Of a stretch of 59,611 bases of DNA, positions 29,747 through 47,082 are shown piece by piece. Each line of letters opens with the position of its first letter. Position 1 is the first letter of the stretch. The notes beneath the pieces are model-generated. The model did no database searches. It had not been told where the DNA came from and was given only the letters and a program-made list of their open reading frames with translations. The position numbers were made by a program, and so were the translations under genes. Origin of the DNA: an uncultured Pelagibacteraceae bacterium. Lineage in GTDB: Bacteria > Pseudomonadota > Alphaproteobacteria > Pelagibacterales > Pelagibacteraceae. The stretch spans positions 1 through 59,611 of the forward strand of contig CABZJN010000006.1 in assembly GCA_902526085.1 (NCBI GenBank), in the 5' to 3' direction.

Positions 29747-29799
29747 AAATTATTCATATCAAAATTATTTAAAATTTTTGTGTATAATATTGACGTATC

Positions 29800-29868
29800 T
29801 TAAAGAATGTATTTATCACCCAAATACATTGCAAAAGCTATCGCAGCACCTAATAAAATATATTTCAT
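29800..29868 (-). CDS. Candidate 22-residue hydrophobic peptide
   Basis: A short frame beginning MKYILLGAAIAFAMYLGD would encode a single membrane-spanning peptide. It has no clear Shine-Dalgarno, and its start lies within a 12-bp inverted repeat. The composition (Gly/Ala-rich hydrophobic core with charged ends) is protein-like, but the support is limited to that. Confidence 0.3.
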   Translation of the reverse strand: MKYILLGAAIAFAMYLGDKYIL

Positions 29869-29889
29869 ATATAAGCTTTATATATGAAA
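29863..29889. repeat. 12-bp inverted repeat
   Basis: TTTCATATATAA and its exact complement are separated by GCT. It lies in the gap before the accessory region (29747-30042) and could be a hairpin or a dyad for a regulator. It has no G/C-rich core, so it is a weak terminator candidate. Confidence 0.4.
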
Positions 29890-30042
29890 GACTAACGACT
29901 TTACAATTTATTAATTTGACGACTTAATTCTTTTATTTTTTTCAATTTTTTCACAAATTTTGTCTCTATTAATTTTATTAATTCTTTTCAGACATTTGCT
30001 GTTAAATATAAAAAAAAGAAAATAGGTTTATTTTTTCATTAC

Positions 30043-30630
30043 TTACTTTCTGTTATCCTCTATTATCTTTTTTATAAGCTTTAGACTATCATCATTTGGA
30101 GGGTATGAATTGTCTGATGTTTTAAAAAATTCACCACCAGTTTTAAGCCTTAAAGTATTTCCACCTCTCTGTGTAACTTCAATGTATAAATAAACACCAG
30201 CCTCTCTTAAGTTTTTTAACTTTTCTCTAAATTCTTTAGAAATTTTAACATCATAAGGTGCAGTTTTGGATACTTGGTTATCAAGTGTTTGGGGTTTTAA
30301 ATTATTAGTATTGAAAATTGGGTCTTTTAAACGACTGTAGATGATAGTTTCTCCAATTATTACACCTTTTGGAAGCTCTTTTTGAATTTTTTTAGCTGCA
30401 CCCTCCACACTTATAAAGCTGTTTTTTGGCAGATTATCGAAGTATTTTTTTATTTCTTTGTTTTTAATTTCGGTGCTTGATCCAAACTTAAATTTATTTT
30501 CATACTCTTTTAAAATTTTATTTGTGTTTCCATTTACTTTGCTTCCTGATGCTCTAATTAATTCACTTCTACTTTCCCATTCAATTTTTCCTTTTTGAAT
30601 TTGATTCTCTAAATACTCTCTAAGTTTCAT
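30043..30630 (-). CDS. Hypothetical protein (195 aa), island left cluster
   Basis: I do not recognise this protein. It is 195 residues, charged and soluble, with an N-terminal helical segment (LREYLENQIQKGKIEW) and a C-terminal part with strand-like IEVTQRGGNTLRLKTGGEFF. It is last in a minus-strand unit of five genes with short gaps, 29 bases after the leucine-rich-repeat gene. A DNA- or RNA-binding role would be a guess from composition only. Confidence 0.6.
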   Translation of the reverse strand: MKLREYLENQIQKGKIEWESRSELIRASGSKVNGNTNKILKEYENKFKFGSSTEIKNKEIKKYFDNLPKNSFISVEGAAKKIQKELPKGVIIGETIIYSRLKDPIFNTNNLKPQTLDNQVSKTAPYDVKISKEFREKLKNLREAGVYLYIEVTQRGGNTLRLKTGGEFFKTSDNSYPPNDDSLKLIKKIIEDNRK

Positions 30631-30659
30631 TTTAAAAAATATTGATTTAATCCTGAAAA

Positions 30660-32792
30660 TTATTCACTTTTAATTGTTGTTAAAGTTTTCGTAGAGAGTC
30701 CATTTATTTTAAGTTTATTCCCTTTTGAAATTTTTTTGGCAAAAGAGGCAAATTTTGTGTTATTTAACTCATTAGATTTTTTAAAATCATACCCATATAC
30801 CCAGACATCTCTAACATTGGAATTTTTACAGAATTTATTAATTTTTGTTATAAATTTATCAAATAAAATATTAATGCTAAAAGTACCCTCGGCATAAATT
30901 TCACTATACCAATTATAAAATCTTAACTTATTTAAAGTCTTTATTTTTTCAAAATTTGGTAAATCGCTTACTTGTAACACTCTAAGATTAAATGTATTAG
31001 GATATTTTCCACCATAACCCTGATTACCTTTTAAATCAGGTTCCTTTTTTTTTAAATCTTGTGGAATTATTATTTCAAAATCTTTTAATTTTTTTGGATA
31101 AAGTTTCTTAGGAAAATTATATCGATTATAATCAGGATAATGGTCAATTGGAGGTTGAAGCCAACAATCTGGATTTAGAGTGAATTTTTCTAGATTGGGT
31201 AATTTATATAAATTTACAAAAAATGAATAAGATGCTTTTCTTGAGATTATACAATTTTCTAAGTGCAAGTGTTTTAGTTTTTTTAATTTAGATAGTGAAG
31301 ACCAATCATTAATATACTCAATATTAGTTAACTCTAATTCTTCAAGATTTTTAAGTTTTTCAATTTCTTTTAAACTTTTTGAATCTCTTAAATCTATTTT
31401 ATCTATCTGTGCTTTTTTTAATTTTTTATTTGATATATTTTTTAAATATAGACTTTCCTTATTTAATTTGTTTACTATTAATTTTCCATTTTCATTTTTG
31501 TTTAAGTAACAGCCTTTAATACCCTCAACAACTATTTTGACATATGCAAATTCATCTCCTTCTCCATTGTCAAAACTTTCATCGCTATAACAGTGTAAAT
31601 AAACTGGATAAGAACCTTTGCTTACTGGAAAGATTATTTGAGAAATAGAAAAATCTACATCTTCTTTTACCTTATAACCATCAAACAATCCGTCTATGCC
31701 CTCCGAGGAAGAGATTTCTAATTTTTTCTCACTAAGTTTCCTTTTTTTGTTTTTTTTACCAAATGTGGGTAGTTCTAATTCTTGAGGCTCTATATCTTTA
31801 ATTATTCCAATAATAAAATCTTCAAACTGTTTTCTTCTTAATTCAAATACTTTTTTAAAATTTTCTTTAAACAAAATTTTTGTTTGTTTTTTAAGTATTT
31901 GTAAAGCTTTTGGCAATCTATCTGAAATATATTTTCCAGAGATTTTCACATCTTTTTTGATCCTTAAATTAAAATTAGAATTAAAATTTCTATTAACATC
32001 ATATTCAAACTCATCAACTTTACACAAATAATCATTAAAAATATATTTTGTCGGATAACAGCCTTCGTCTAGTAAGTTACTGAAAATTTCTGTATATGAA
32101 TAATTGATTGGTTCTTGATGAGGTTCTAGTTTTTTGTGAATTACTGAAGAACTAAAACTTGATGACTGAGGCTTTGTAATAAGACCATATGAAAAATTAA
32201 CTATTAATATTGGTGTAGTATTTTGAAAAATACCATTTTTTTTAAAGAAATTTAAATCAATTTTTTCTTTTAACTCAGAGTCACTATCTGCATAACCTGG
32301 GCCATCATTCCAGCCCAACAAAAATCTTAATGGTCCAGCATAATCACCTACCGCAATAAGACCTGATCTTGTATCTAAATCAAATAATTTAATTCTATTT
32401 TGATTAACCTTTTTAAAAAACTGATCATTAAAATCTTCTTTATCCCACCAATTTGAAATATAACTTTGAATATCTTTGGGTTGGCTTTTATATTCAGCTA
32501 CAGTGGCATCTGCAAATATTTTTTTTATTCTATTTTTTCTATCAACGCCAATGTATACTGAATAACCACCATCAGCTCCATTATGGTATGAAATAGAATT
32601 GTATTTAGAGGCATTAATTTTTCTATAGTGATCAGTTACCTCTTTAACATTAGGTGCATCGATTCCTGTATCAAAATCATTACTTAATCTTTCACATAAG
32701 TCACCGATAGTAACTGTGGCAGCATCTACCGCATTCATTTCTAAAAAATAAATATCAGTGATAGGAAATGGATCTGAAACTTTTTTTATCAC
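30660..32792 (-). CDS. Large protein with leucine-rich-repeat segment
   Basis: A 710-residue protein. The N-terminal half has a FDLDTRSGLIAVGDYAG segment and, near residue 390, FPVSKGSYPVYLHCYSDE then DEFAYVKIVV. This pairing is faintly like DUF4241 proteins. The C-terminal half contains several leucine-rich-repeat turns (LKNLEELELTNI, LSKLKKLKHLHLENC, LYKLPNLEKFTLN). No signal peptide is present, so it is probably cytoplasmic and a protein-binding scaffold. Its start abuts the stop of the next upstream gene with no gap. Confidence 0.6.
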   Translation of the reverse strand: MIKKVSDPFPITDIYFLEMNAVDAATVTIGDLCERLSNDFDTGIDAPNVKEVTDHYRKINASKYNSISYHNGADGGYSVYIGVDRKNRIKKIFADATVAEYKSQPKDIQSYISNWWDKEDFNDQFFKKVNQNRIKLFDLDTRSGLIAVGDYAGPLRFLLGWNDGPGYADSDSELKEKIDLNFFKKNGIFQNTTPILIVNFSYGLITKPQSSSFSSSVIHKKLEPHQEPINYSYTEIFSNLLDEGCYPTKYIFNDYLCKVDEFEYDVNRNFNSNFNLRIKKDVKISGKYISDRLPKALQILKKQTKILFKENFKKVFELRRKQFEDFIIGIIKDIEPQELELPTFGKKNKKRKLSEKKLEISSSEGIDGLFDGYKVKEDVDFSISQIIFPVSKGSYPVYLHCYSDESFDNGEGDEFAYVKIVVEGIKGCYLNKNENGKLIVNKLNKESLYLKNISNKKLKKAQIDKIDLRDSKSLKEIEKLKNLEELELTNIEYINDWSSLSKLKKLKHLHLENCIISRKASYSFFVNLYKLPNLEKFTLNPDCWLQPPIDHYPDYNRYNFPKKLYPKKLKDFEIIIPQDLKKKEPDLKGNQGYGGKYPNTFNLRVLQVSDLPNFEKIKTLNKLRFYNWYSEIYAEGTFSINILFDKFITKINKFCKNSNVRDVWVYGYDFKKSNELNNTKFASFAKKISKGNKLKINGLSTKTLTTIKSE

Positions 32793-33239
32793 TTAGGAAT
32801 CTTTAAGCCTTTCTTTATAAATTCTATCTCTGTATTGTTTTAATTTAATTTGAGATTCTGTAAGGTTTTCATGCCTTTTTTTATAAAATATTTTTTTTTT
32901 ATTAGCCGGCATCAAATCTCTTTGTTTTTTTGTTCTAGCTCTATTTCTAAAAGTATCTTCATTAATAAGACCTTTTTCAAATTCACCAATACTTTCGTAT
33001 GAGGAGTGTTTATATATATCTTTTAATGGTTGTTTTCTTTTACCAAAATTTTTAAATACCAAACCAGGTCTTTCGGTCTCTTTTCTAGTTAATATTTTTC
33101 TGGAATTCAGTTTACCTTCACCTCTAAAATCCTTTTTTGTAAAATTAGGATGTTTATTTATTATTACTTGAATTTCCTCATCAGTTCTTTTAACCCATTG
33201 ATTAAAGCCTTCAGGATTTCTATTTGTATCTCTTGACAT
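32793..33239 (-). CDS. Very basic hypothetical protein (148 aa)
   Basis: I do not recognise it. The 148 residues are rich in Lys and Arg, with a C-terminal region (MPANKKKIFYKKRHENLTE) that looks nucleic-acid-binding or disordered. It lies between the GxxExxY-like gene (nine bases) and the leucine-rich-repeat gene (no gap), so it is probably cotranscribed and may be stoichiometrically linked with them. Confidence 0.55.
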   Translation of the reverse strand: MSRDTNRNPEGFNQWVKRTDEEIQVIINKHPNFTKKDFRGEGKLNSRKILTRKETERPGLVFKNFGKRKQPLKDIYKHSSYESIGEFEKGLINEDTFRNRARTKKQRDLMPANKKKIFYKKRHENLTESQIKLKQYRDRIYKERLKDS

Positions 33240-33248
33240 AACTAATAA

Positions 33249-33716
33249 TTAAATTTCGTCTAAAATTAATTTATTATCTTTGTATGACCATATTTCTAAA
33301 TCAATTTTCTCTTCAGGAACCTCATTTGCTCCCTCTTTGTATTTTTCGACTTTCTTGAAATTTAATAAAATTCCTTTTGTAACTTTACTTATTATTTCAT
33401 GATTATTTAATGGAGCTGATCTTAATTGAGATTTTAGCTGATGCCTGTTTGTATCATCAATTTTAGACGCCTGTTTCATCTCGATTATTAGATATTCTTT
33501 AAGATCCCCGTGTGGTGAAATAATGAAATCTAATTCAACCATACCAATAGGGCTGGTGTCATAATAAATTTGTACACTAGTCTCCCTTAAATGAGGTATT
33601 TTTAATTTATCAAATTCAATTGAGAGGGCTGCTTGAATATATCTTTCTTCTGTTCCACCTATTTGATCATAAATTTTTTCTGAGATTTTTTTTAAATTTT
33701 CAATAAATTCTTTCAT
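33249..33716 (-). CDS. GxxExxY-like PD-(D/E)XK superfamily protein
   Basis: The 155 residues resemble the GxxExxY family: GGTEERYIQAALSIEF near the start matches the name-giving motif. A nuclease-like core follows, with VELDFIISPHGDLKEYLIIEMK, giving D (in ELDF), E and K as the expected metal-site residues. A C-terminal GILLNFKKVEKY matches the family end. Family members are predicted nucleases, although activity is rarely shown. Confidence 0.65.
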   Translation of the reverse strand: MKEFIENLKKISEKIYDQIGGTEERYIQAALSIEFDKLKIPHLRETSVQIYYDTSPIGMVELDFIISPHGDLKEYLIIEMKQASKIDDTNRHQLKSQLRSAPLNNHEIISKVTKGILLNFKKVEKYKEGANEVPEEKIDLEIWSYKDNKLILDEI

Positions 33717-33718
33717 TA

Positions 33719-34081
33719 TTAATTCTCCATTGAGTAATATTTCAGAAATCTATCCTTAAAATGATCATACATTCTTTTATCTATTTCATCATAATATTTC
33801 TTGGACTTTGGGCTTATCCCTTCAAATTCTGTTAATTGTCTGTGTAGTTTAAAAGCAAAATTTGTCATAATTTCATCGTATCCGAACCAAGAATTTACTT
33901 TTGCCCATTTTTCAGCCTTAGGATCAGATTTAAAGTCTTTGCCTTCTATTTTTGCCCAATCTACTTTTTCGTAAATATTTTTAGCTATTTTTTTACATAC
34001 TCTTATGAAAAATCTCACAAGATTTAATATCGTTAAATAAACGAAGTACTTTGCTGTTTTCTTTTTTATTTTTCCTCTCAT
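33719..34081 (-). CDS. Hypothetical protein (120 aa)
   Basis: I do not recognise it. It begins with a lysine-rich stretch and a moderately hydrophobic segment (FVYLTILNLVRFFIRVCKKIA), which may be amphipathic or membrane-associated. The rest is soluble. It is the first gene of the five-gene minus-strand unit and has a recognisable GGA-type ribosome-binding site (GAAAGGAAAAT before the ATG). Confidence 0.55.
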   Translation of the reverse strand: MRGKIKKKTAKYFVYLTILNLVRFFIRVCKKIAKNIYEKVDWAKIEGKDFKSDPKAEKWAKVNSWFGYDEIMTNFAFKLHRQLTEFEGISPKSKKYYDEIDKRMYDHFKDRFLKYYSMEN

Positions 34082-34137
34082 ATTTTCCTTTCAAAATTAG
34101 ATTTGCTTTGGAACAATCTTCATCAATTAATCCATAG

Positions 34138-34154
34138 CAAAACTGTTAGTTTTG
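34138..34154. repeat. Small inverted repeat upstream of the five-gene unit
   Basis: CAAAACT and AGTTTTG flank a three-base loop. It lies in the 197-base gap 34082-34278, upstream of the 120-residue gene. It could be a weak hairpin or an operator. No terminator T-run follows. The remainder of the gap shows nothing I can name. Confidence 0.3.
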
Positions 34155-34278
34155 TTGGTTAATATGACAAAATTATAGAGAAGGTTTAACGGTTTTAGTT
34201 AAATGCTATCTAAATAAGTAAGTCTCAAATTAACTAATATTATATTATCAAAGAGTTATTATGATTTCAATAAAATAA

Positions 34279-34452
34279 TTATTTTTTGTTTTTTATTTTA
34301 AAACCATTTTTTTCAAGAACAGCTATTAAATTTTTAAGCATTTCTTCTCTTGAGCTATTTTTATCTCCAACACTTTCAAAAAATAAGAGCTTTCTTCCTT
34401 TTTTTTCTTTTGATTTAAAGTATTCTTTTAATGATTGTATTATATGTTTCAT
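34279..34452 (-). CDS. Small basic protein (57 aa)
   Basis: A short frame beginning MKHIIQSLKEYFKSKEKKG encodes 57 residues, highly charged and helical in appearance. A consensus Shine-Dalgarno (AAAGGAG, 34457-34463) sits a few bases before the ATG, which is rare in this window and supports expression. Function unknown. Confidence 0.55.
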   Translation of the reverse strand: MKHIIQSLKEYFKSKEKKGRKLLFFESVGDKNSSREEMLKNLIAVLEKNGFKIKNKK

Positions 34453-34601
34453 ACATCTCCTTTAGCGTTGTGTTTAAAGTCCCAGCAAGTAGAGTTAAGT
34501 TCTAAATCAGGACTAGTAATTTTATATCATAGTTTAGTCATATTTTTTAGTTATTTTATTAATTGTTAAAGTTATTTTTCGGACTTTATAAACCTCAAAA
34601 C

Positions 34602-34940
34602 ATGCAACAATTAGATCTATTTGATTATAGAAAAGATTATATCTTTGATAGGGAAAATCAGATTGCACATTATTATGATATTTTAAGCGAAACAAGAGAC
34701 ACTATTATTTATTCAGAGCACATAGATCCAAAAAAAGGCTTCTCTGTATGTGGAATGGATTATGAGGAATATGTAGATGTTAAGAAAATACACTTAGGAA
34801 AACTTACATATGATCAAATATTACTATATCTAAAACAATCTGAGAAAGATCAAAGAATTCAAAAATACAAAGAGCTTCTTAAATTTAGAAATATTCCATA
34901 CGAACATGACACATTCACTTGGAGCAACGATGATTTTTAA
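34602..34940 (+). CDS. Hypothetical protein (112 aa)
   Basis: I do not recognise it. The ATG at 34602 gives 112 residues starting MQQLDLFDYRKDYIFDREN. A TTG 13 codons upstream would add an unrelated tail. It is acidic, soluble and rich in aromatic residues (YYDILSETRDTIIYSEHID). It is the only plus-strand gene in the left half of the island. Its stop codon directly abuts the stop of the convergent 122-residue gene. Confidence 0.5.
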   Translation: MQQLDLFDYRKDYIFDRENQIAHYYDILSETRDTIIYSEHIDPKKGFSVCGMDYEEYVDVKKIHLGKLTYDQILLYLKQSEKDQRIQKYKELLKFRNIPYEHDTFTWSNDDF

Positions 34941-35309
34941 TTAAAATTGTATCTTTGAACCAAAAAGATCATTAAGTGCTTTTATTAATTCTTTAAATTT
35001 TCTTGGAAAACTCTCATAACCTGAACAATATTTTGCTCTACCACTTCTATCTCTTAGTTTTAATTCCCAACTATAACCATCTAATAACTGCTGATATTTA
35101 AGTTTAGAATATGGATACTTTTTATGCCACTTCCATACACCAATTTCTTCAATTCTGTCCCAGAAAGATAAAATTTTATAATCTTGTATATCTACAATTT
35201 TTGCATCCAATCTAGGAGTGATAATGGTTCCTTTGTTATTTTCTAATAGCTCGACACTTTCTGGAGGTATCATTGAGTGACCACTATAAGAAATAACTTC
35301 TTTTTTCAT
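34941..35309 (-). CDS. Hypothetical protein (122 aa)
   Basis: I do not recognise it. A 122-residue soluble protein with several Trp and Tyr residues (ILSFWDRIEEIGVWKWHKKYPYSK) and a strand-like WELKLRDRSGRAKYC stretch. It lies 32 bases after the 68-residue membrane protein gene, in the same direction, and could belong to the same transcript. Confidence 0.5.
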   Translation of the reverse strand: MKKEVISYSGHSMIPPESVELLENNKGTIITPRLDAKIVDIQDYKILSFWDRIEEIGVWKWHKKYPYSKLKYQQLLDGYSWELKLRDRSGRAKYCSGYESFPRKFKELIKALNDLFGSKIQF

Positions 35310-35341
35310 ATATTTATAAACGGTTTTATTAAAATTTTGTT

Positions 35342-35548
35342 TTAAATTTTACGATGTTTTGCTCTAGTAGCTTCGTTGATGTTATCTAAATAAACTCTTA
35401 TTTTTTCATGCTCAGAGACATGCTTACTTTGTCTTAATTTTTTGTCAAAAATTCTTTTATCGAGTTTCTTCTTATATAAATATATAAACACAACAAGTGA
35501 TATAGCAGTAATCATGAAAAGTACTAAAAGTATTTGAAAATCTGTCAT
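35342..35548 (-). CDS. Small membrane-anchored protein (68 aa)
   Basis: Sixty-eight residues with one N-terminal membrane helix (ILLVLFMITAISLVVFIYLY) and a basic cytoplasmic tail. The ATG overlaps the TGA of a 22-residue frame (ATGA), so it appears translationally coupled to it. Function unknown. Confidence 0.55.
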   Translation of the reverse strand: MTDFQILLVLFMITAISLVVFIYLYKKKLDKRIFDKKLRQSKHVSEHEKIRVYLDNINEATRAKHRKI

Positions 35549-35613
35549 TGTGATGAAATATATATACCTAACAAAGCAGCCGCAAGTTCAATTAAAATAA
35601 TTGTTTCAAGCAT
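35545..35613 (-). CDS. Overlapping 22-residue hydrophobic peptide
   Basis: A short frame beginning MLETIILIELAAALLG fits exactly between two larger genes. Its ATG lies eight bases inside the 3' end of the 201-residue gene, and its TGA overlaps the ATG of the 68-residue gene. Such end-to-end overlap on both sides argues for real translation. It is probably a single-pass membrane peptide of unknown role. Confidence 0.45.
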   Translation of the reverse strand: MLETIILIELAAALLGIYISSQ

Positions 35614-36211
35614 TTTTAAATTCCAAAAAATTTAAAGTCAAAAACTCTCTTCTAGATATCTTTTTCTTAACATTAGGGACTCTTAATTTTAAAGATTTTA
35701 AGTATTTAATATATTCAAAGAATCTTAATGAACTCACTGATTTTCTAACAATAGCTGCTATACAAATTCCTACAAGAAAACTTAGTAGAGAAACACCCAT
35801 AGCTTTAATTGTTAAAGCAAACGCACTTACACTTAAACCACCTTTAACAATTCCCCATTTAAGATTTCTTAACTCATTTTTATTGGTTGATTTTGTATAT
35901 CGGTAAGCAAGCACAACTATTGAAGTAACTGTTCCAATCGGATCTCCATGAATAAAACTTGAGGCTAAAGCGCCTGATGCAATTTCTGAAAATTCCTCTT
36001 TATGTCTTTTTTTCCAGCCAAAATATAAAGCTAAAGGACCAATCGATGTAGCAAGCAGTTCATTAAACTCTACGTGCTTAATATCTTCTATCCATTTCTG
36101 AGGTACCTTAATTGCTTGATTAAGTTGATCATAAATAATTGTATATGATTTAGAATAAGTTGAATGAATTAAAGTAGATATATTATTAAAGTAATATAAT
36201 CTTTGCATCAT
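35606..36211 (-). CDS. Membrane-associated hypothetical protein (201 aa)
   Basis: I do not recognise it. The 201 residues have two or three hydrophobic segments: LLATSIGPLALYFGW, an Ala/Ser/Gly-rich SEIASGALASSFIHG region and GVSLLSFLVGICIAAIV near residue 150. The C-terminus is basic. It starts a three-gene overlapping unit (this gene, the 22-residue peptide, the 68-residue protein) and is divergent from the NERD-helicase gene, with 35 bases between start codons. Confidence 0.55.
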   Translation of the reverse strand: MMQRLYYFNNISTLIHSTYSKSYTIIYDQLNQAIKVPQKWIEDIKHVEFNELLATSIGPLALYFGWKKRHKEEFSEIASGALASSFIHGDPIGTVTSIVVLAYRYTKSTNKNELRNLKWGIVKGGLSVSAFALTIKAMGVSLLSFLVGICIAAIVRKSVSSLRFFEYIKYLKSLKLRVPNVKKKISRREFLTLNFLEFKNA

Positions 36212-36246
36212 AACTTATTGTTTTATAAATGAATTAAAGCATAAAA

Positions 36247-38121
36247 ATGTCAGACTTTGAGAGATTATTTCCAATTGGAATATTGAAAAAAAGCAGAAAC
36301 AGAGAGCTTAAGCCAGACTTTGAGAAAGGTGAGTTTTTTTTAGCAGATTATTTAAATAAAAATTTACCTAAAGAATGGAATATTTATACTCGTCCTGAAT
36401 TAAAAGCACGCTGGGGTTCAAATCAAAATAAAAAAACACCTGATGTGGTAATTGCCCATCCATCAGATGGTATAATGATATTTGAAGTAAAGAATTGGAA
36501 TATTTCAAATTTTTTTGTAGATGAGATAAAAAAAATAGGCTTTCGAACTAGAGTAGATATTTATCAAAAAAATTTAAAAGGAAGATCGGGTAATTTAAAT
36601 CCAGTAGATCAAGCAGAAAATTATTTGTGGAGAATGAGAAATGGTATTAATGATATATTGGAGGAAATTTATGAAAATAACAACAAAAGACATTTAATTC
36701 GTTGTGGTATTTATTTTCACAATCCATATTCAACACAAGAAGCCAGGAACTTTGTTAGATACAAATATATAGATCAGGATAGATGTTCTGTTATTGCTCG
36801 AGATTTTTTAGAGAAAGGAATAGAAATAGAAAAAATAGTTCCATTAATTAATAATAGATTTAAAATTAAATCAGATAAAGATTGGTTAAGTCTGTTTTCT
36901 AATTGGATTTCACCACCTTTACACAGACAAGAAAAGCAATTTAGATTGTCCATAAATGACCTTGATAATAATCAAAAAAAATATGTTGAGAGTAAACCTA
37001 ATGTAATTCAAAAAATTTCAGGAGTTGCTGGTAGTGGTAAAACTACTATTGCTGCATTAAGAGCAGCAATTTCAGCTAATAATAAGAAAAAGGTTCTTGT
37101 TCTTTGCTACAATATTACAATAAAAAATTTTTTAATAGATGAAGTAGAAAAAACTATTTATTCTCAAAATGAATTAATTGACTTCTTTCACTTCCACGAT
37201 TTTTGTAAAGCTTACAGAGAGAATAATAAAATTTCTTATAAAACAAATATTTTAAATGAGGAAAGTGACGATATTTCAATTGATGAAATAAAAAATCATA
37301 AAGAGCAAAACAAAGATTACTCAATTAACTATGATGTAATAATTATAGATGAAGGACAGGATTTTAAAAAAAACTGGTACGATTTTATAAGAAAATTTTT
37401 AAACCCAAATGGAGAAATTTTAATTGCACTTGATCAGAAGCAAAATATTTATAACAGAGAAAAAAAAACCTCACTAAAAGGTATTGGTGGCGGTAGGTGG
37501 GGAATTTTGAAAAAAAGTTATAGATTATTAAATGCACATATTGACTTAGCAAACAAATTTTCTGAAAAATTTTTGATTGATAATAATGAGGAAGATGAAG
37601 ACCCAAGAATTGAATTAGATAAGAATAATCAATTTAAATTACCCTTTAAAGCAGAACCAGCTTCATATTGGTTAAATATTTTAAATGATAATGATTTAAA
37701 TGATAGTGTGATTGGAATTCTAAAAGATTTATTTGATAAAAAAGTAAGTCCTTCTGATATTGCAATTTTAGTTACAAACCATGATCAAGGAAGAACTATT
37801 AAAGAGGTAATTAGTAATAGTTATGATGACTTTAAAATTATGGATGTTTTTGACAAAATGGACGTTAGACAAAGGCAACAAAAAATACTGTTTAAAGTCC
37901 ATAGTGATAAACTCAAGATGGCAACTATCGCAAGCTTTAAAGGTTGGGATAGAAGAAATATATTAATAATCACTGATAAAACCTCTAGCTTTGAAAAAAA
38001 TAATGCCCGAATGGATTTTGAATTTTATACATCAATGACTAGAGTTAGAGAAAAAGTTTACATTTTAAACCGTAATAAACGTTATACAGAATTTCTTAGG
38101 GAAAACTTTGAAAAATATTGA
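36247..38121 (+). CDS. NERD-domain superfamily I helicase
   Basis: A 624-residue fusion. The N-terminal NERD-type nuclease domain holds D66 (TPDVVIAH), E80 and K82 (IFEVKNW), the PD-(D/E)XK triad. A UvrD-like helicase follows: Walker A GVAGSGKT (259-266), Walker B IIDEGQDF (about 366-373) and a late motif MATIASFKGWDRRNILIIT. NERD-helicase proteins are repeatedly found near restriction or other anti-phage genes. It precedes the cytosine methyltransferase by 55 bases on the same strand and could serve the same system or act alone. Confidence 0.82.
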   Translation: MSDFERLFPIGILKKSRNRELKPDFEKGEFFLADYLNKNLPKEWNIYTRPELKARWGSNQNKKTPDVVIAHPSDGIMIFEVKNWNISNFFVDEIKKIGFRTRVDIYQKNLKGRSGNLNPVDQAENYLWRMRNGINDILEEIYENNNKRHLIRCGIYFHNPYSTQEARNFVRYKYIDQDRCSVIARDFLEKGIEIEKIVPLINNRFKIKSDKDWLSLFSNWISPPLHRQEKQFRLSINDLDNNQKKYVESKPNVIQKISGVAGSGKTTIAALRAAISANNKKKVLVLCYNITIKNFLIDEVEKTIYSQNELIDFFHFHDFCKAYRENNKISYKTNILNEESDDISIDEIKNHKEQNKDYSINYDVIIIDEGQDFKKNWYDFIRKFLNPNGEILIALDQKQNIYNREKKTSLKGIGGGRWGILKKSYRLLNAHIDLANKFSEKFLIDNNEEDEDPRIELDKNNQFKLPFKAEPASYWLNILNDNDLNDSVIGILKDLFDKKVSPSDIAILVTNHDQGRTIKEVISNSYDDFKIMDVFDKMDVRQRQQKILFKVHSDKLKMATIASFKGWDRRNILIITDKTSSFEKNNARMDFEFYTSMTRVREKVYILNRNKRYTEFLRENFEKY

Positions 38122-38176
38122 TCTATTTATAATTTAAAAGCAAAAAATATGATAAATTACGATGATTCAATAACTT

Positions 38177-39436
38177 ATGAAATTTATAGATTTATTTGCA
38201 GGACTTGGTGGTTTTCACTTAGCTCTTAACAAGCTTGGTCACGAATGTGTATTTGCTAGTGAGTTAGAAATCTTCTTGAGAAATCATTATGAAGAAAATT
38301 TCGAATTGTATCCTGAGGGAGATATTACAAAAATAAATATCAAAAAAATTCCAAAACATGAAATTTTATGCGCTGGATTTCCTTGCCAACCTTTCTCTAA
38401 AGCTGGTTTTGCGAATGGATTTAGCCATAAAATCGCTGGAGATATGTTCTTCTATTTATTTAAAATAATTAAATACCATAAGCCTAAATACTTATTTCTA
38501 GAAAATGTGCCAAATCTGCTTACGCATAATGATGGAAAAACTTGGTTATTTATGAAAAATAAAATATCAAAGCTTGGCTATGTTGTTGATCAGAAAGTTC
38601 TATCGCCTGTGGATTTCAATATACCTCAAACTCGTGATCGACTTTATATTGTAGCAAAACAAAATAATCTGAATGATTTTGAATGGCCTCAAAAAAATAA
38701 AGCTAAAAATAATCTTAAAAAATTTTTAATTTCAAAACCAAAAATAAATAAAAAACTTACTAAATTAAAAAATAATGTTCTTGAAACTTGGAAAGGTTTT
38801 TTGAAACGTATTCCAAAAAATACCTATGTACCAAACCCCCTTTGGTCAATGGAATTTGGCGCCACCTACCCTTATGAAAATTCAACACCTTACAGCACAG
38901 GTTTAAAAGAATTAAGAAAACTGAAGGGTTCCTTTGGGAAAAGTCTTAAAAATGTTAATAGAGATAATATTCATGATTTAATTCCTAAATATGCAAATAA
39001 AACAGTAAAAAAATTTCCTGATTGGAAAATAAGAATGATTAAACGTAGTAGAGAATTTTATAAAAATAATAAAGTTTGGATAGATAAATATCTTCCTAAA
39101 ATCACATCATTACAATTTGAGGCTTACCAGAAACTAGAATGGAATTGTCAAGGAGATGCATTCAATTTAAGGAAGAAGATTGTAACATTTAGAGGTTCAG
39201 GCGTAAGAATTAGACGTAGTACAAACTCCCCTACTTTAATTTCATCATCTGTATCTCAAGTTCCATATTTACCTTGGAAGAAAAGATACATGTCTCATGA
39301 AGAATGTTTAAATATTCAAGGCTTTAGAGGAATAAAAAGTTATCCTGAAGCTCATGAAGCATTCTATTCAACGATTGGTAATGCAGTAAACGTTGGAGTG
39401 GTTACTAAAATAGCAAAAAATTTGTTACAAAATTAA
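38177..39436 (+). CDS. C5-cytosine DNA methyltransferase
   Basis: A 419-residue Dcm-type enzyme. Motif I is FAGLGGFHLAL (7-17), motif IV is PCQPF with catalytic C70, motif VI is LENV, motif VIII is QTRDRLYIVA and motif X includes GNAVNVGV near the C-terminus. The target-recognition region (roughly residues 190-340) does not allow the site to be read. Its 3' end overlaps the stop of the convergent nuclease gene by four bases. It probably protects host DNA from the adjoining MORC/Z1/nuclease operon. Confidence 0.93.
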   Translation: MKFIDLFAGLGGFHLALNKLGHECVFASELEIFLRNHYEENFELYPEGDITKINIKKIPKHEILCAGFPCQPFSKAGFANGFSHKIAGDMFFYLFKIIKYHKPKYLFLENVPNLLTHNDGKTWLFMKNKISKLGYVVDQKVLSPVDFNIPQTRDRLYIVAKQNNLNDFEWPQKNKAKNNLKKFLISKPKINKKLTKLKNNVLETWKGFLKRIPKNTYVPNPLWSMEFGATYPYENSTPYSTGLKELRKLKGSFGKSLKNVNRDNIHDLIPKYANKTVKKFPDWKIRMIKRSREFYKNNKVWIDKYLPKITSLQFEAYQKLEWNCQGDAFNLRKKIVTFRGSGVRIRRSTNSPTLISSSVSQVPYLPWKKRYMSHEECLNIQGFRGIKSYPEAHEAFYSTIGNAVNVGVVTKIAKNLLQN

Positions 39437-40923
39437 AATAATACTTGGTTTTTTAAAGTGACAACCTTATTATTTGATATCCAGCAAATTTTAATTTTTT
39501 CAGATAACAAAAATTTCTTTTGAATATCGTTAAGAAATTTTTCCGGATCTCTATCTACTAACAAATATAAGTTTGTACTTGTTGGAATTTTTTTCCAGTA
39601 CAGTGCATAAGAGAAGAAATACTCTTTTAGTTGCATAATCCCATGCCTAATTTGTTCTTTAAAGTTATCTTTGTTGAATGTTTTTACCTCAAATAAATAA
39701 CCTTTATTTTTTTGGTGACTAAAGAAATCAATATGAATGGTTCTATGAATTGGAAGTCCTTTGTTTTTAAATATGATTGCTAAATTATTAATTGTTTTTT
39801 CATGTATTTGATTTGCTTTATCAATTTGATTAAGCCCTTCAATTTTATCTTTAAAGTTGTCAGGATTAATTATTCTATTTTGGTATTCTTTATTTATTAT
39901 AATATCTAATAATTCTGGCTCGTCATTTGAGTGAGATGATATTGTATAAATTTGCGTTTCCTTTTTTTCTGTCTTTAATATTTGTTCTTTACCAATTAAA
40001 ATTTCTAAATTTTTTGATTTTATTTTATTTATAAGATTTTCAGCGTCATTTTTAAGTCTATTCTTATCAATTTTATTTTCTTCGAAATAAATATCCCAAA
40101 TTTTTTGCTGAGGTCCATGTGCACCACCAGGATAACCACCGACTTCATTTGGGTCTGTAAATTTAAAATTTTGTATCTTTGTGTAAATTCCATTTATATT
40201 TCTAAATTTTTTAACATAATCTTCAGGTATGAAGTTAGATAAAGGACTAAAACCTAAAATTTTAAATCTTTCGTTACATAATTTACTAACAAATAATAAT
40301 TCTGGATCATTTTTATCAATATTTTTAGTTTTTCTCTCTAAACTATAAAGATATAAAGATAATAGTAAGTCATCTTTGCTATAAGGGAAATTATGTCTTT
40401 TTATTTTTTCTCTAAAAGTGTCTACAAAATCTCTATCAAATATTTTACTAAAATTTTTTAAAACTAATGAAAATAAAATAGCATTTACACTTAAGCTTAA
40501 ACTTCGTTGATCATGTCTTCGATTATTAAATGGATCTCTTTTTCTATAATAATATTTAGAAAAACCATTTCTCTTTGCCTCTTCAATGACATTTTTTCTA
40601 GTATATAGAGATTGCTTTGTGTTTGTTTCAAAACTATCGTCGTATTTCCAGAAAGTAAAAGTATTTGTATCCTTATCAAACCCTAATAATATTACTTTAT
40701 AATCTTCTGCAGTATATCCAATTAATTTATGTTTAATTGAAACAGATAATTGAATTCTAATTTCATCAAGATTACGAGAACCTCCTGAATGAGATACTTC
40801 AGCAAAATAAATGATATATTTTTTACTTTTAATATTTAAGGTTAATAACTGCGAGTCTGTTTTTTCAATCGAAAAGGTTTGATGATTCTGATCTAATGAA
40901 TAGTTAATTAAATCTAAAATCAT
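39433..40923 (-). CDS. Predicted restriction endonuclease, PD-(D/E)XK fold
   Basis: A 496-residue protein. The C-terminal nuclease core has D399 (HIDFF), E412 and K414 (LFEVKT), followed by a helix R426-x-G-x-x-Q431-L-x-x-Y435 that resembles the QxxxY motif of RecB-like nucleases. The N-terminal 150 residues form a separate domain with an RNLDEIRIQLS segment, which may be the DNA-recognition part. It is the last gene of the minus-strand operon, nine bases after the Z1 gene. Nuclease assignment rests on the motif and on context. Confidence 0.7.
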   Translation of the reverse strand: MILDLINYSLDQNHQTFSIEKTDSQLLTLNIKSKKYIIYFAEVSHSGGSRNLDEIRIQLSVSIKHKLIGYTAEDYKVILLGFDKDTNTFTFWKYDDSFETNTKQSLYTRKNVIEEAKRNGFSKYYYRKRDPFNNRRHDQRSLSLSVNAILFSLVLKNFSKIFDRDFVDTFREKIKRHNFPYSKDDLLLSLYLYSLERKTKNIDKNDPELLFVSKLCNERFKILGFSPLSNFIPEDYVKKFRNINGIYTKIQNFKFTDPNEVGGYPGGAHGPQQKIWDIYFEENKIDKNRLKNDAENLINKIKSKNLEILIGKEQILKTEKKETQIYTISSHSNDEPELLDIIINKEYQNRIINPDNFKDKIEGLNQIDKANQIHEKTINNLAIIFKNKGLPIHRTIHIDFFSHQKNKGYLFEVKTFNKDNFKEQIRHGIMQLKEYFFSYALYWKKIPTSTNLYLLVDRDPEKFLNDIQKKFLLSEKIKICWISNNKVVTLKNQVLF

Positions 40924-40932
40924 TAAATTTGT

Positions 40933-43449
40933 TTAATTCTTTGTTTCTTTAAAACCTTTTCCTAATATTTTTGGAATATATAATCTAAAATATGGAACAT
41001 TTTCTATTAAAGGGTTGTCGCCTTGCTCTTTTGATGAATGAATATTGAATTTATATAATTGAATAGTGGCAATTTTGTTAGCCTTCATTCTTTTATTTCC
41101 CTCTATTGGCTTACCATAAGGAGAGTCCTTGCTAGGTGTGGGATGCCATTTAGGTTGTGGTTCTATCATAAATTCATAATGTAAATATGCATGTCCAGGT
41201 CTGCTTTTGTTTGCACCTGACTCAATAGGCACAGAACTATCCTTAGAATTAAAAGAATATTTATCTACTCTTCTTTTAAAACTTGAATCATCATCATTCA
41301 TAATAACAACTGCAATTTCAATATCATCTTTTTTTAAATAATTTCTCCAATCTGCTAGTTCAGTAATGATTGAATAATCATCATCATTTGTATCGTCATA
41401 ATAATTTAATTCTTTAAGATATTTTTCTGACACCTCATATAAACTTAAATTATTTATTACATCTATATTTTTTAAATTTGATGAATACTCGTGCTCAGAA
41501 ATTTCAGAAAATTTAATTTTATTACCAATATTTGAAAGCGCATCGTAAATATCTCTATTTTTTTCTAATCTATAACTATCTAAATGATGTGCTCGATGGT
41601 CTGAAATAATACCACCATGTGGAAACTTTTTAAGGTTATTTTCGATAATACCTATCCTAGCAGGACCAGCTTTACCTGCGAATGGAAAACTTCTTTTCAG
41701 ATCTTTTCTCAAATCGCCATTTCTTTCTACAATTTCTCTTATTTTTTCTCTTATAATAATTTCATTTTCTTGTTGCTGTGAAAAATTATCTGCGAGAACT
41801 TGTGGTAAATACATTCTTACTAGGCCTATGTAAGGTTTATGGTAACCAAAAAATCTTGCTCTTTGATAAATTGTATCATCGGTTCCTGTTTCTCTAACTA
41901 TATAAGAAACTGTTAGGCCTGAAATTGTATAACCTCTCTCTAAACCAATTCCACCAACAAGTATTCTTGCATAAATAGAGTCTTTGCCCCATTTTATGGT
42001 TGGTATTTTTCCCTTCTGTGTATTAAATAAATCTACTCTAGGCTCTACAATATCTATTGCTCTAACCATTCTTTTTATGAATTCATCATTCCAATTAGAT
42101 AAATTTTCATCTGTCATTTTTAAATCCTTGTGTAATTTGATAAATTCTTTTTCTAATTCAGGATAATCAATATCAATTCTTTTTGATGGGTCGATTATAT
42201 TTCTACCTTTAGAATCAAATGCTTTTTTATATCTTTGAAGTTCGCTTTTAATCCAATTCTGCCAATCTTTATGTATAGTTTTATTTACAGATGGATGAAC
42301 CAACATTGATCTTGATTTTTTTTTTATGTGCTCTTTATTTAATAATCCCTGGGCTACACCAATCAAAAATATTTTAATAGCTTCAGTAAGGCTCTCAGGT
42401 TTAATTTTATTATCATTTATATTTTCTTCTTTTATTATTCTAATGTGTTTTTTTTCATTATCTGAGTTTCCAAAAAAATAGTTTGCACCAGTATACATTG
42501 ATCCAGGCTCTAAAATTGTTGCACTTTGAGGTGAAAGATGACTGACTTGTGCAATTAGAAAGTTGGCTACTGGTGTGGCGGTATATCCTAAATACGAATG
42601 TTGAATTAATAATTGTCTTAATCTCTTAATCTGTCTATGTGTTGTTGTTTCAGGTCTCTCTACTAAAATTTCAATACCTTCAGTCAACTCAAAGTTCTCA
42701 TCTTTTTCAAAATCATTTAAATACTTTAAATTATCAATCGATATTCTAAATTTTCTACTTATTTCCTCTAAATTTTCATCTTTTTGTACAATATGTTTAA
42801 CTGCTTCATTATATTTTTTGAAAGTTTTCTTTTTTGTTCTTGCGTAAGCATCTAGTGAATAATGATCGGCCTCATCATCAAAAATTATTGTTGGGATTTT
42901 AGATAGTTCAACACCATTTTCTTTTGCGGTTTCAAATATTTCTGAAACTTTAGAAATTGAATTCCAGAGTTTTTTTGTAACTATTAAAATTGCAGGTTTC
43001 TCCTCCTCTTCAACAAATAAAGAGTCATCTGATTTTTCTAATTGTTTAATCAGGTTTAATGATTTTTCCTGGTCAACTTTGCCGTCTATGTCTATTCTGT
43101 TCCAACCAAACTGATCTAAAGATTCATAAATTCTGTCTTGTGTTTGTTCTGCTAAATTTGAAACATGACCAGATAAAATTATCATTAGTTTAAATCCATT
43201 GTCTCTAGCCATGCAAGAAACAGCTTCCATAGATGTTGTTTTTCCGCTTTGAATATAACCAAGTACTAGATTTGTTTTAAAAGTTTCATTATTAAGTGTT
43301 GGATTATTTGGATCTATAGTTTTTGATAGTGCGTCTTGAGCATTTTCAATTACCCTGTTGATATCATCATCTTTAAAATTTTCTTCTTTAAGTTTTCTCT
43401 TAAAATCATTTGTAAAAGAACCATTTTTTTTTGGAATCCATTTAATCAT
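40933..43449 (-). CDS. Z1-domain helicase-like ATPase
   Basis: An 838-residue P-loop ATPase. Walker A is GYIQSGKTT (64-72), and Walker B is PTIIFDDEAD. The Z1 region (about residues 480-560) reads ILVGGIGLERGYTISGLTVSYIV followed by YQRARFFGYH, a close match to the motif V-VI area of Z1 proteins. Z1 ATPases occur next to MORC-type ATPases, methyltransferases and nucleases in predicted restriction systems. It lies two bases after the MORC-like gene, so the two are likely made together. Confidence 0.85.
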   Translation of the reverse strand: MIKWIPKKNGSFTNDFKRKLKEENFKDDDINRVIENAQDALSKTIDPNNPTLNNETFKTNLVLGYIQSGKTTSMEAVSCMARDNGFKLMIILSGHVSNLAEQTQDRIYESLDQFGWNRIDIDGKVDQEKSLNLIKQLEKSDDSLFVEEEEKPAILIVTKKLWNSISKVSEIFETAKENGVELSKIPTIIFDDEADHYSLDAYARTKKKTFKKYNEAVKHIVQKDENLEEISRKFRISIDNLKYLNDFEKDENFELTEGIEILVERPETTTHRQIKRLRQLLIQHSYLGYTATPVANFLIAQVSHLSPQSATILEPGSMYTGANYFFGNSDNEKKHIRIIKEENINDNKIKPESLTEAIKIFLIGVAQGLLNKEHIKKKSRSMLVHPSVNKTIHKDWQNWIKSELQRYKKAFDSKGRNIIDPSKRIDIDYPELEKEFIKLHKDLKMTDENLSNWNDEFIKRMVRAIDIVEPRVDLFNTQKGKIPTIKWGKDSIYARILVGGIGLERGYTISGLTVSYIVRETGTDDTIYQRARFFGYHKPYIGLVRMYLPQVLADNFSQQQENEIIIREKIREIVERNGDLRKDLKRSFPFAGKAGPARIGIIENNLKKFPHGGIISDHRAHHLDSYRLEKNRDIYDALSNIGNKIKFSEISEHEYSSNLKNIDVINNLSLYEVSEKYLKELNYYDDTNDDDYSIITELADWRNYLKKDDIEIAVVIMNDDDSSFKRRVDKYSFNSKDSSVPIESGANKSRPGHAYLHYEFMIEPQPKWHPTPSKDSPYGKPIEGNKRMKANKIATIQLYKFNIHSSKEQGDNPLIENVPYFRLYIPKILGKGFKETKN

Positions 43450-43451
43450 AG

Positions 43452-44990
43452 TTATGTCCTTGGTGGTATATTCTCACAAATTGAGTTCAATCTTAGTCTC
43501 ATTAATGCTGCATCTCTTGAGCCATCTATATGTCTTACCTGAGCTTCACAAATTGCAAAAAAAGTAATTAATGTCAAAAAACCATTTCTATCGTTATTAT
43601 GAGTAAAGAACCTCTCTGCAAACTTGTGTTTTAAGTTAATATAAACTTTAATTTTAAAATTGTTTTTTGAATCTGGAAATTCCGCAAAATATAAATCAGT
43701 ATTACTTTCATCATACTCTGTAATGATTTGGTATCTATACTTTTGATTTTCTAAAACTACTTCCTCCCAATCACTTTCATTTCTCTCCTCTGCTTTCTTG
43801 TGTTTTTTTTCGTCTTTTATTGGATTAATTTTTGTAAGTCTTGCGTTTTCAATACCTCTTTTTATAATTTTACTTATTTGAGGTAAGCTTTTAGTAGTTT
43901 GTTGTCTTATATCATCTCTTTCTAGAGACTCCGACCATTCTTTAGCTTGTTGTATGAGATTAATTTTCTTTTTATCATCTAAGAATTCTATTTCATTTTT
44001 TAATTGAGATATAAACTGACTCTTTAGAGTATCATCCCATTTAAAATCATTTTTTTGAAAAGTTACTGGCATATCATCAAGATTCAATTCTCCAAATATA
44101 ACTTGCTGTCTTCTATCGTTTCCTAATCCAAATATTTCTTGAGGTTTAAATGGAACCGCTTCTGTACCTGTAATTAACCTTCCTCTCCTAAATAGAGAGA
44201 ACCCAGGTTGTTTAACTTGACCTTTTTCTCTTATTCCAACATGACCTGTGACATGTGTTAAATCTTTAAATGTAAAATCTAATTTTTTAAACCATCTTCT
44301 TTTTTTTGGGTTTTTAATAATTCCATCCTCCCATTCTTTGTAGTATCCAGACGTACGTACTGGAGGAGGTTCGTATTTTAATTTATTTCCATTAATTGAA
44401 ATTTCTATTTCGTCTGAATTAATTAAGTGTCTATATATTGAACTTAAATGTTGAAAAATCTTAGTAATAGAAGTCGATTTAGGTTTGTGGTTCAATTTAT
44501 TTAAAGTGACAATTGTGTAGTGAGCATCTTCATTGGCTTTACTTTCTGTTACCTCTAATTGTTCTGTATTTTTTTCTCTTAATTTTTCTATATTGAATTC
44601 AACCAATCTCCAATGTTTCTCACCTAAAGCTTTTGTGTGAACTTTCCATTTATCAGCAAACCAACAAGATGCTATTTTCATTCCAACACCAAATTCAGAT
44701 AGACCTTGAGTATCTGGCGGGGGTTTGCCAGTTTCAAAAGCATCTGCGTATCTTTCCTCTGAAATGCCAGCAGCATTATCTTTAATTCTTATCTCATTTG
44801 GTAATAAATCAATTCGTATTTTTAACTTATAGTCTCGTTCTAATTTTCTAAGTTTTTTTTTATTTGCCCTGTAACTTTGAACAGAGTTATCAATAAACTC
44901 TGCCATTGCCTCCCATTCGGTATACTTGATATTTTTCATTAAAGCCAACAAACCTATTGTTGGTCTTATATCTATGTATTTAATTGACAT
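43452..44990 (-). CDS. MORC-like GHKL ATPase
   Basis: A 512-residue ATPase of the Hsp90/MutL/histidine-kinase fold. ATP-site motifs are E31-x-x-D34-N35 (EFIDNSVQSY), IKDNAAGI (about 69-76) and SEFGVGMKIASCW (about 97-109). An S5-like second domain with GFSLFRRGRLI and FQKNDFKWDD follows, as in prokaryotic MORC proteins. The C-terminal 120 residues are charged and partly helical. It overlaps the upstream gene by one base and the Z1 gene follows after two bases. It probably acts as an ATP-driven clamp on DNA. Confidence 0.82.
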   Translation of the reverse strand: MSIKYIDIRPTIGLLALMKNIKYTEWEAMAEFIDNSVQSYRANKKKLRKLERDYKLKIRIDLLPNEIRIKDNAAGISEERYADAFETGKPPPDTQGLSEFGVGMKIASCWFADKWKVHTKALGEKHWRLVEFNIEKLREKNTEQLEVTESKANEDAHYTIVTLNKLNHKPKSTSITKIFQHLSSIYRHLINSDEIEISINGNKLKYEPPPVRTSGYYKEWEDGIIKNPKKRRWFKKLDFTFKDLTHVTGHVGIREKGQVKQPGFSLFRRGRLITGTEAVPFKPQEIFGLGNDRRQQVIFGELNLDDMPVTFQKNDFKWDDTLKSQFISQLKNEIEFLDDKKKINLIQQAKEWSESLERDDIRQQTTKSLPQISKIIKRGIENARLTKINPIKDEKKHKKAEERNESDWEEVVLENQKYRYQIITEYDESNTDLYFAEFPDSKNNFKIKVYINLKHKFAERFFTHNNDRNGFLTLITFFAICEAQVRHIDGSRDAALMRLRLNSICENIPPRT

Positions 44991-47029
44991 TAATCTTGAT
45001 CAGATACTTTATTATTATATTTAAACGCTGGTTTATAAACTATATTAGCAAAATTTCTTTTAGTCATCCCAATTTTGTCTAATAGAATTTTGTAATTCTC
45101 ATTAACAGATAATGACCATTTATAATTGTTTTTTATGAGTTGTTCTAAGTTTACAACCATAGGTGATTTTGAACTAAGATAATTATTGTCATAAAAAAAT
45201 GGTTTATCTAATACTATTTTTTTAATCATAGAATCATAAAAATAATTTGAAAAATTGTATAATAATTTTTCATTTAATTTTTCCCTTATAAAACTAATTG
45301 TAGCAAAGTCGTAATTTTCTAATAATATCTCTAATTCATTTATAATTTCTTTTTCATCATATAGTTTAATGGCTTTATCAAAACCTATATATGTACCTGG
45401 GCTTGTTTTAAAAATTATAAATTTATCTACTAAGTCGTTTAAATGAATATCGACAGCTAATTCCTCATTTGTTTTCTGTAATTTTTTGATTATTTCATTT
45501 TGATGAATTTCATTTTGAGAATTTAAAACTATTTCTCTAATTTTATCTTTTAATGATATAAATTTAATTTCTTTATTTAAACTTATTGTATTGGTACCAG
45601 ATTGTCCTTTATGAAATAATCCACTTTCTGCTCCAAATTTTTTTATTATAGCTCTAGCATCATAGAAGTTTAAATCTTGAAATTGAGATAAATTAGTTAT
45701 CTCTTTAAATGCTGGCTCCATAGAAGATTGCTCTAAATTATTATCTTGAAGATACTTAATAAATAAATCAATAATTTCATTTTTATTTTTAATCTCATTA
45801 CAATATCTAAATAATCTATAAGTTCCTCTTTCAGAAAGATATATGCTTTGATTAGTTAGCATATTTAAAGACGAGTCTCCTACTATCCTATTCAAATCCC
45901 ATTTATTATTAGTAAATGAATTATTGCCAATTTCAGCTATCTTTCTCCAATGCAATCCTTCAGGATATGAAACTAAAATATGTGTCACTTCCAAATTTTT
46001 AAGCATCTTCAAAGGATAAATTTTATTATTTACAATTTTAATTAATTTTTTATTTTCCATAAATTCAATAGAAGATTTTGCTACAAAATTATTGTATCCA
46101 TAATTGTCTTTGATAATTTCAATGAAATTTTCTTGGTCAAGTCCACTAGGAATTAATGTAAATATTTCCTTTAATTTATCTTCATTAAAATTCCATAACT
46201 CTCTTTCTGGAGTTTTAAAATATTCTGCTTTTACACCGCAATAAAATTCCATAAACACAGTTAATTTATCCCTAGTGATTTCCTCTGTGCCTCTTGCTGT
46301 ATCAGTAAACATTTTGTCTAACCTGGGAAATAGTTTGTGAAAACTCACATAATCATATTGATTGAAATAATTAATTAATGTTTGCTTTTCAATTAATCCA
46401 ATTCTGGCTAGTGATAAATTTAAAATTTTTTCAAGCTGTCGCACTCTTTCTCTTGTAATTCCATATTGTTTTCCTAATTCGTCAAGTGTTTTGTAGTTTT
46501 CTTTAAACCCATAACGTCCAAAGAAAAAAACTTTCATTCTTTCTGTTAAGACAGAAATTAAATATTCGATATCTTTAATTATAAATTCTTCTATTTCTTT
46601 CACATCAAGGTCTTTTGTAATTTTTATTGTCTTAATATTATAAAAATTCTCTTTGAAGTTGTTGAAATCATTAAAAATTGATTTATTTAGACCACTTAAA
46701 TTATTTCGAGTTTCTATTTTTATTTTTTCATTTTCTTTATATCTCTTTATTAGATCTTCTCTCATTTCAGACCAATCAGACAGATCATAGGAAGTATTTT
46801 CTTTATCTATATTAAATTTTTGAAATAATTCTTGTATTTCATTAAGTGATTTTCTACCAAAGTTTCTCAATTTTAATAAAGACGTTTCTTCATAAGATAA
46901 TAAATCACCTAAAAAAATGATCTCCTCTGCTTTAAGGGCATTATATGTTCTAACCGAAAGAGGCCAATCATTTAAAATATTAATTGAGATTAGATTTAGA
47001 TAATTAATTTTTTGAGGATCTTCAGACAT
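44990..47029 (-). CDS. Alpha-CTD/sigma-region-4 chimeric DNA-binding protein
   Basis: A 679-residue protein heading the MORC/Z1 operon. Residues 15-72 match the RNA polymerase alpha C-terminal domain. R27, N30, N56, G58 and K60 fall at the spacing of the E. coli DNA-contact residues R265, N268, N294, G296 and K298. Residues 167-210 match sigma-70 region 4 (YKTLDELGKQYGITRERVRQLE). No sigma region 2 is present, so it cannot be a complete sigma factor. The rest shows winged-helix-like segments (HILVSYPEGLHWRKIAEIG; REIVLNSQNEIHQNEIIKKL). It may be a regulator or the sequence-recognition subunit of the system. Confidence 0.7.
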   Translation of the reverse strand: MSEDPQKINYLNLISINILNDWPLSVRTYNALKAEEIIFLGDLLSYEETSLLKLRNFGRKSLNEIQELFQKFNIDKENTSYDLSDWSEMREDLIKRYKENEKIKIETRNNLSGLNKSIFNDFNNFKENFYNIKTIKITKDLDVKEIEEFIIKDIEYLISVLTERMKVFFFGRYGFKENYKTLDELGKQYGITRERVRQLEKILNLSLARIGLIEKQTLINYFNQYDYVSFHKLFPRLDKMFTDTARGTEEITRDKLTVFMEFYCGVKAEYFKTPERELWNFNEDKLKEIFTLIPSGLDQENFIEIIKDNYGYNNFVAKSSIEFMENKKLIKIVNNKIYPLKMLKNLEVTHILVSYPEGLHWRKIAEIGNNSFTNNKWDLNRIVGDSSLNMLTNQSIYLSERGTYRLFRYCNEIKNKNEIIDLFIKYLQDNNLEQSSMEPAFKEITNLSQFQDLNFYDARAIIKKFGAESGLFHKGQSGTNTISLNKEIKFISLKDKIREIVLNSQNEIHQNEIIKKLQKTNEELAVDIHLNDLVDKFIIFKTSPGTYIGFDKAIKLYDEKEIINELEILLENYDFATISFIREKLNEKLLYNFSNYFYDSMIKKIVLDKPFFYDNNYLSSKSPMVVNLEQLIKNNYKWSLSVNENYKILLDKIGMTKRNFANIVYKPAFKYNNKVSDQD

Positions 47030-47030
47030 T

Positions 47031-47046
47031 TTATTTTATAAAATAA
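47031..47046. promoter_or_regulatory. 16-bp perfect palindrome before the alpha-CTD/sigma-4 gene
   Basis: TTATTTTATAAAATAA is an exact palindrome two bases upstream of the ATG at 47029. It would overlap the translation start region and core promoter of the operon, as an autorepressor site might. It is A/T-only, so chance occurrence is a real alternative. Confidence 0.4.
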
Positions 47047-47060
47047 TATTTTTATCTATT

Positions 47061-47082
47061 TTTAGACAAATTTAAGTCTAAA
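47061..47082. promoter_or_regulatory. Second dyad in the divergent promoter region
   Basis: TTTAGAC and GTCTAAA flank an eight-base spacer, 15 bases beyond the first palindrome and 41 bases before the divergent gene at 47123. The 22-base dyad with G/C in both arms is a better operator candidate than the A/T palindrome. The protein binding it is unknown. Confidence 0.45.

Follow-up and report, generated by a model that had tools for sequence, protein, structure and literature searches.

A leucine-rich-repeat protein and a GxxExxY-type predicted nuclease in a modular, putatively anti-phage gene cassette of Pelagibacter

The five-gene unit and its products

The stretch of DNA analyzed here (59,611 nucleotides, hereafter the window) belongs to a 1.15-Mb assembly of an uncultured Pelagibacteraceae bacterium, Candidatus Pelagibacter (SAR11), and carries five closely spaced genes on its minus strand. 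In order of transcription, these encode A120 (33719..34081, 120 aa), B155 (33249..33716, 155 aa), C148 (32793..33239, 148 aa), D710 (30660..32792, 710 aa, GTG start) and E195 (30043..30630, 195 aa), with gaps of 2, 9, 0 and 29 bp between them. The original prediction, made from the sequence alone, had placed the five ORFs correctly and had given the right gap sizes, but listed them in genome order (29, 0, 9, 2). At the level of sequence comparison the ORFs are real genes, since homologues were found for D710 (42–71% identity over its length), E195 (51–82%), C148 (52–71%) and B155 (57%).

The first gene product, A120, possesses a C-terminal domain that had escaped the original prediction. Residues 51–114 (33740-33931, minus strand) match phrog_28737 (E 7.6e-20, PHROG search) and show 55% identity over 62 aa with gp56 of pelagiphage HTVC027P. 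In three phage records the gene carrying this domain directly follows a GroES gene, and two genes lie between it and the annotated capsid/head gene; from this location, and because its sequence is acidic and charged, we refer to the phage gene as putatively scaffold-like, its function being listed as unknown in PHROGs. Single-sequence patterns of A120 gave no match in IMG/VR, whereas a domain-alignment search detected the domain in at least 594 viral contigs. Across 80 IMG/VR loci, proteins of 301–358 aa hold all but two of the 118 domain rows from complete ORFs, and a capsid gene homologue is found around 1.3 kb downstream of the domain gene at every locus with enough downstream sequence (45/45). 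A120 thus retains the ~62-aa phage scaffold-like domain, but not the full-length acidic architecture of ~330 aa beside a capsid gene: its neighbors are the nuclease and module genes, and its N-terminal 50 aa are strongly basic (charge +10), with a hydrophobic/amphipathic stretch, where the checked full-length phage proteins are acidic. Among 399 genomes of the genus we found no A120 homologues beyond chance matches; the N-terminal matches in four Pelagibacter genomes were rejected as such, one common alignment crossing a stop codon. A120 is a private module of the window's copy, equipped with a phage-morphogenesis domain.

As originally proposed, the second gene encodes a GxxExxY-like predicted nuclease. 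B155 scores above the cut-offs of both NCBIfam TIGR04256 (E 4.6e-10, 39.9 bits, curated cut-off 35) and Pfam PDDEXK_3 (PF13366; E 1.2e-11, 45.4 bits, cut-off 22) and contains the signature motif G20-x-x-E23-x-x-Y26 together with the PD-(D/E)XK residues D63...E79-x-K81. These three residues form the predicted active site (minus strand, 33528-33530, 33480-33482 and 33474-33476, respectively). Their absence from alignments had been named as an argument against the prediction; we found them not only in B155, but also in its 57% identical homologue at another Pelagibacter locus (L058), where the GxxExxY motif is not exact. No relatives of B155 were detected among PDB sequences. To our knowledge, the GxxExxY/PDDEXK_3 family has no established function and no operon combining it with an LRR protein is known; the single publication in which we found the term deals with an algal virus.

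The third gene codes for a basic, Lys/Arg-rich protein without a match in Pfam, PHROG or PADLOC, and C148 may bind nucleic acids. E195, in turn, has a helical N-terminal and an alpha/beta C-terminal half, and neither family nor fold searches returned a significant match for it; weak matches in ORFs of ~690–711 aa were judged to be due to chance, and the one inspected resembles glycyl-tRNA synthetase beta by eye.

The largest protein, D710, appears from its homologues and structural model to comprise a conserved beta-rich N-terminal region (residues 1–260), a long conserved helix (residues 286–333, 31794-31937) and a C-terminal LRR solenoid (residues ~470–700, 30693-31385), all encoded on the minus strand. 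The solenoid, in line with the leucine-rich-repeat assignment made earlier, is predicted by AlphaFold, whose model (mean pLDDT 69.9) is reliable across most of residues ~430–700 but poor in the N-terminal region, and is backed by Foldseek, whose top matches are almost all LRR proteins (best E 5.6e-4), while the Pfam LRR matches at 473–540 are exclusively sub-threshold. Structure prediction covered two of the five proteins. A further sub-threshold Pfam similarity (E 0.034) relates the N-terminal region of D710 to DUF4241. The records of D710 homologues are named Pelagibacteraceae, Pelagibacterales or Candidatus Pelagibacter. Of 397 genomes of the order, 11 were found to encode this LRR protein, and these belong to a single genus; a larger profile detected it in 17 of 399 genomes of that genus. 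No relatives were found in IMG/VR or in phage and plasmid collections.

The surrounding island

The unit lies within a segment of ~18 kb (29747..47986) that is missing in two relatives. In one of them (L222), the genes matching those on either side of the segment (29303-29746 and 47987-48886) are about 0.6 kb apart; in the other (L223) a single unrelated gene separates them, at a distance of about 1.4 kb. Neither relative has any of the window genes of 29.75 to 47.99 kb between the flank genes. As the flank genes sit close together without these genes, the segment is most simply explained as an inserted island. It also includes a candidate defence gene encoding a NERD + UvrD-type helicase (36247..38121, plus strand; Pfam NERD, 1.5e-9; PADLOC C3a187 "NERD+UvrD", 9.3e-64), a gene for a C5-cytosine DNA methyltransferase (38177..39436, plus strand; PADLOC MTase_II, 4.1e-80) and one for an MzaC-like Z1-type helicase/ATPase (40933..43449, minus strand; PADLOC Helicase_II, 4e-39; MzaC, 1.1e-21). 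Together with genes for proteins of 496, 512 (a GHKL-type ATPase by eye) and 679 aa, the methyltransferase and MzaC-like helicase genes occupy the region 38177-47029, which looks like a Mza-type restriction system. It shares the island with the unit, but its genes are separate ones, on separate runs outside the five genes.

Two smaller genes border the unit. A short gene on the plus strand (34602..34940, ORF open from 34563), designated module F, is found beside four of the cassettes described below, on the opposite strand. Just upstream of the unit, a 57-aa ORF (34279-34452, minus strand) resembles by eye a 78-aa ORF located near another C gene (10615-10851 of locus L217), and the two possibly represent a further small module.

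Recurrence of the modules in Pelagibacter genomes

C148, D710 and E195 turned out to be recurrent modules (termed C, D and E). The order that repeats itself in the neighborhoods of D is small3, a nuclease gene and small2 (in either order), C or K, E and D. Among the recognised modules D comes last, the exceptions being the window, where it precedes E, and two loci (L007, L029) with a DUF2130 gene after it. A nuclease is encoded in the same-strand run at 13 of the 15 LRR (D) loci. Cassette runs draw on at least eight nuclease families, i.e., GxxExxY, two Cas4-like ones, RmuC, DUF2130, DUF2779, ExoI and RecB/UPF1; by Pfam, these correspond to PDDEXK_1/Cas4-like, RmuC, DUF2130, DUF2779, ExoI/SbcB and RecB-RNaseH-UPF1 helicase proteins, the second Cas4-like subfamily (c37) being named from sequence resemblance. 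The co-occurrence search suggested with the original prediction gave a divided answer: C, D and E share one short run not only in the window but also at L026 and L030, but the five genes are nowhere else found together, their exact order is unique to the window, and the GxxExxY gene adjoins an LRR cassette at one other locus only (L058, on the opposite strand). The original interpretation of the locus is supported in part. The locus stands in a defence-island context, but the proper unit is a modular cassette whose nuclease can be exchanged, rather than a fixed set of these five genes.

A wider form of the cassette is marked by small2, which we observed in 53 of 329 genomes. One of the nuclease families listed above is encoded in the run at 45 of 50 small2 loci, directly adjacent in 31 cases, compared with 16 of the 166 other multi-gene runs in these regions. 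As the small2 loci have common ancestry and do not count as independent, this contrast is descriptive. The cassettes occupy several chromosomal sites; the RmuC/ExoI versions share chromosomal flanks.

Several variants were also recorded. D is lengthened to about 1430–1456 aa at four loci (L013, L029, L030, L058), with extra LRR-like repeats by eye, and at L014 (8001-10083) the LRR gene is split over two frames, so that it may be a pseudogene or contain a sequencing error. L061, which lies at the window's chromosomal site, encodes a divergent LRR-family protein of 423 aa (7753-9024 of the reverse-complemented locus); its nucleases differ from the window's and comprise a Cas4-like c37 gene and DUF2130. 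Other LRR proteins of 526 to 858 aa (L097, L104, L112) reach the edge of the sequence examined; their genes match the profile outside a cassette run and were left out of the counts. In the LRR cassette of L010 the place of the nuclease is taken by a 541-aa protein, by eye similar to a GHKL-type ATPase, together with one of 708 aa that bears an RNA polymerase alpha-CTD-like domain. At L134, a Vsr-type endonuclease gene (5497-5880) and that of a 646-aa protein (7464-9404), which matches the PADLOC candidate PDC-M33A, form one run downstream of small2. Finally, a group of loci (L123, L125-L130, L133) displays a near-constant set of small2, a ~530-aa protein without a Pfam match, usually RmuC, and a ~190-aa protein, and many of these runs contain or adjoin a gene for a Cas4/RNaseH/UPF1-type helicase (~1110 aa); this set is possibly a separate undescribed system.

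Possible function of the cassette

None of the five proteins matches a signature protein of PADLOC-DB 2.0 at E<=0.001 (the best being Cas4 at E 0.017 for B155), which agrees with the earlier statement that no described system of this composition was known, and our searches of papers accessible without subscription found no description of such a cassette. The cassette type is best regarded as undescribed. It resembles Shield in that the latter combines a nuclease with variable accessory genes in defence islands and has subtypes with different partners (PMC10270631), and RmuC is present in some sister cassettes. However, Shield is defined by ShdA with its RmuC domain, whereas the nuclease of the window belongs to PDDEXK_3; searches with Pfam and an RmuC profile found no RmuC in the unit, which thus falls outside Shield. 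Moreover, Shield has been described only in Pseudomonas and its component table contains no LRR protein (PMC10270631). Similarly, D710 shares with NLR-type immune sensors an LRR solenoid as a possible ligand-binding part, but the NACHT/STAND NTPase domain is lacking: none was found in the five proteins by Pfam up to E 1, placing the unit outside the NLR/STAND definition.

We consider it moderately probable that the unit represents a variant of a modular Pelagibacter nuclease cassette with an anti-phage role, in which D would act as sensor or adaptor and the exchangeable nuclease as effector. An immune role is suggested by the recurrence of nucleases in LRR and small2 runs compared with the background, by the diversity of nuclease families and the usual position of the LRR gene at the end of the run, by the occurrence at several chromosomal sites, with the window site free of the island in two relatives, and by the sharing of that island with the methyltransferase, MzaC-like helicase and NERD-helicase genes. 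It is further favored by the spread of the gene-1 domain among viral contigs next to capsid genes, and we also counted for it the conservation of the catalytic D/E/K in both GxxExxY homologues. Counted against it were the two LRR loci without a recognised nuclease (L010, L027), a C gene with none beside it (L217), the single occurrence of A120 and the absence of small2 and small3 matches in the window. In such a system the effector slot would be taken by one of several nucleases, in the window by the putative GxxExxY PD-(D/E)XK enzyme, and the small proteins of basic or helical character (C, E or K, small2, small3) would serve as DNA-binding or regulatory partners. The phage-type domain of the first gene suggests that, in the window, capsid assembly may be the trigger or target of the system; A120 could be a bait reporting that assembly is under way or could itself disturb procapsid assembly.

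RmuC and ExoI can be DNA-maintenance enzymes. Given this and the shared chromosomal flanks, some of the wider set could function in DNA repair, and the cassettes as a whole might be accessory repair or recombination modules (ExoI, RmuC, DUF2130, RecB-like helicases) moving between SAR11 genomes, in which the LRR and small proteins would scaffold or regulate DNA processing rather than immunity. That ExoI/SbcB and RmuC dominate one locus set and that the run of five holds no hallmark defence gene would be in keeping with this explanation; we nevertheless regard it as unlikely, as the exchange of unrelated nucleases in one slot, the low frequency of the LRR protein (17/399) and the methyltransferase and helicase defence genes of the island fit immunity better. 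Still less probable is a chance neighborhood in a defence hotspot, where a solo nuclease, a solo LRR gene and a phage relic would merely be co-directional: the unique five-gene order, D alone at L027 and C without a recognised nuclease at L217 are compatible with it, but C, D and E come together in three short runs, D is accompanied by a nuclease at nearly all its loci, and the frequency in small2 runs is 90% against 10% in the background. Although small partner proteins accompany exchangeable nucleases and the D N-terminal region is weakly like DUF4241, a toxin-antitoxin-like or inter-bacterial competition cassette, in which small basic proteins neutralise a nuclease toxin, is the least probable, as no delivery gene was seen in the run and the nucleases belong to exonuclease/restriction-like families.

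The anti-phage reading can be extended, far more tentatively, to a widespread undescribed SAR11 immune system whose exchangeable nucleases would be docked by an LRR protein and its small partners; in the window copy, a captured phage morphogenesis domain would serve as built-in bait or inhibit assembly. SAR11 bacteria rank among the most abundant in the ocean. They have streamlined genomes, and oligotrophs of this kind are considered to possess few genetic defence systems and to depend on variation of their surface (PMC12143481). A nuclease cassette in roughly one-sixth of the sampled genomes, as judged by the small2 marker, with swapped effectors and in some cases an LRR protein, would change this picture and supply testable genes. 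A bacterial protein encoded in a defence island and bearing a phage morphogenesis domain would also point directly to what the system senses and, if the extended reading is true, one of the ocean's most abundant bacterial groups would possess an immune module joining an LRR protein with a phage mimic.
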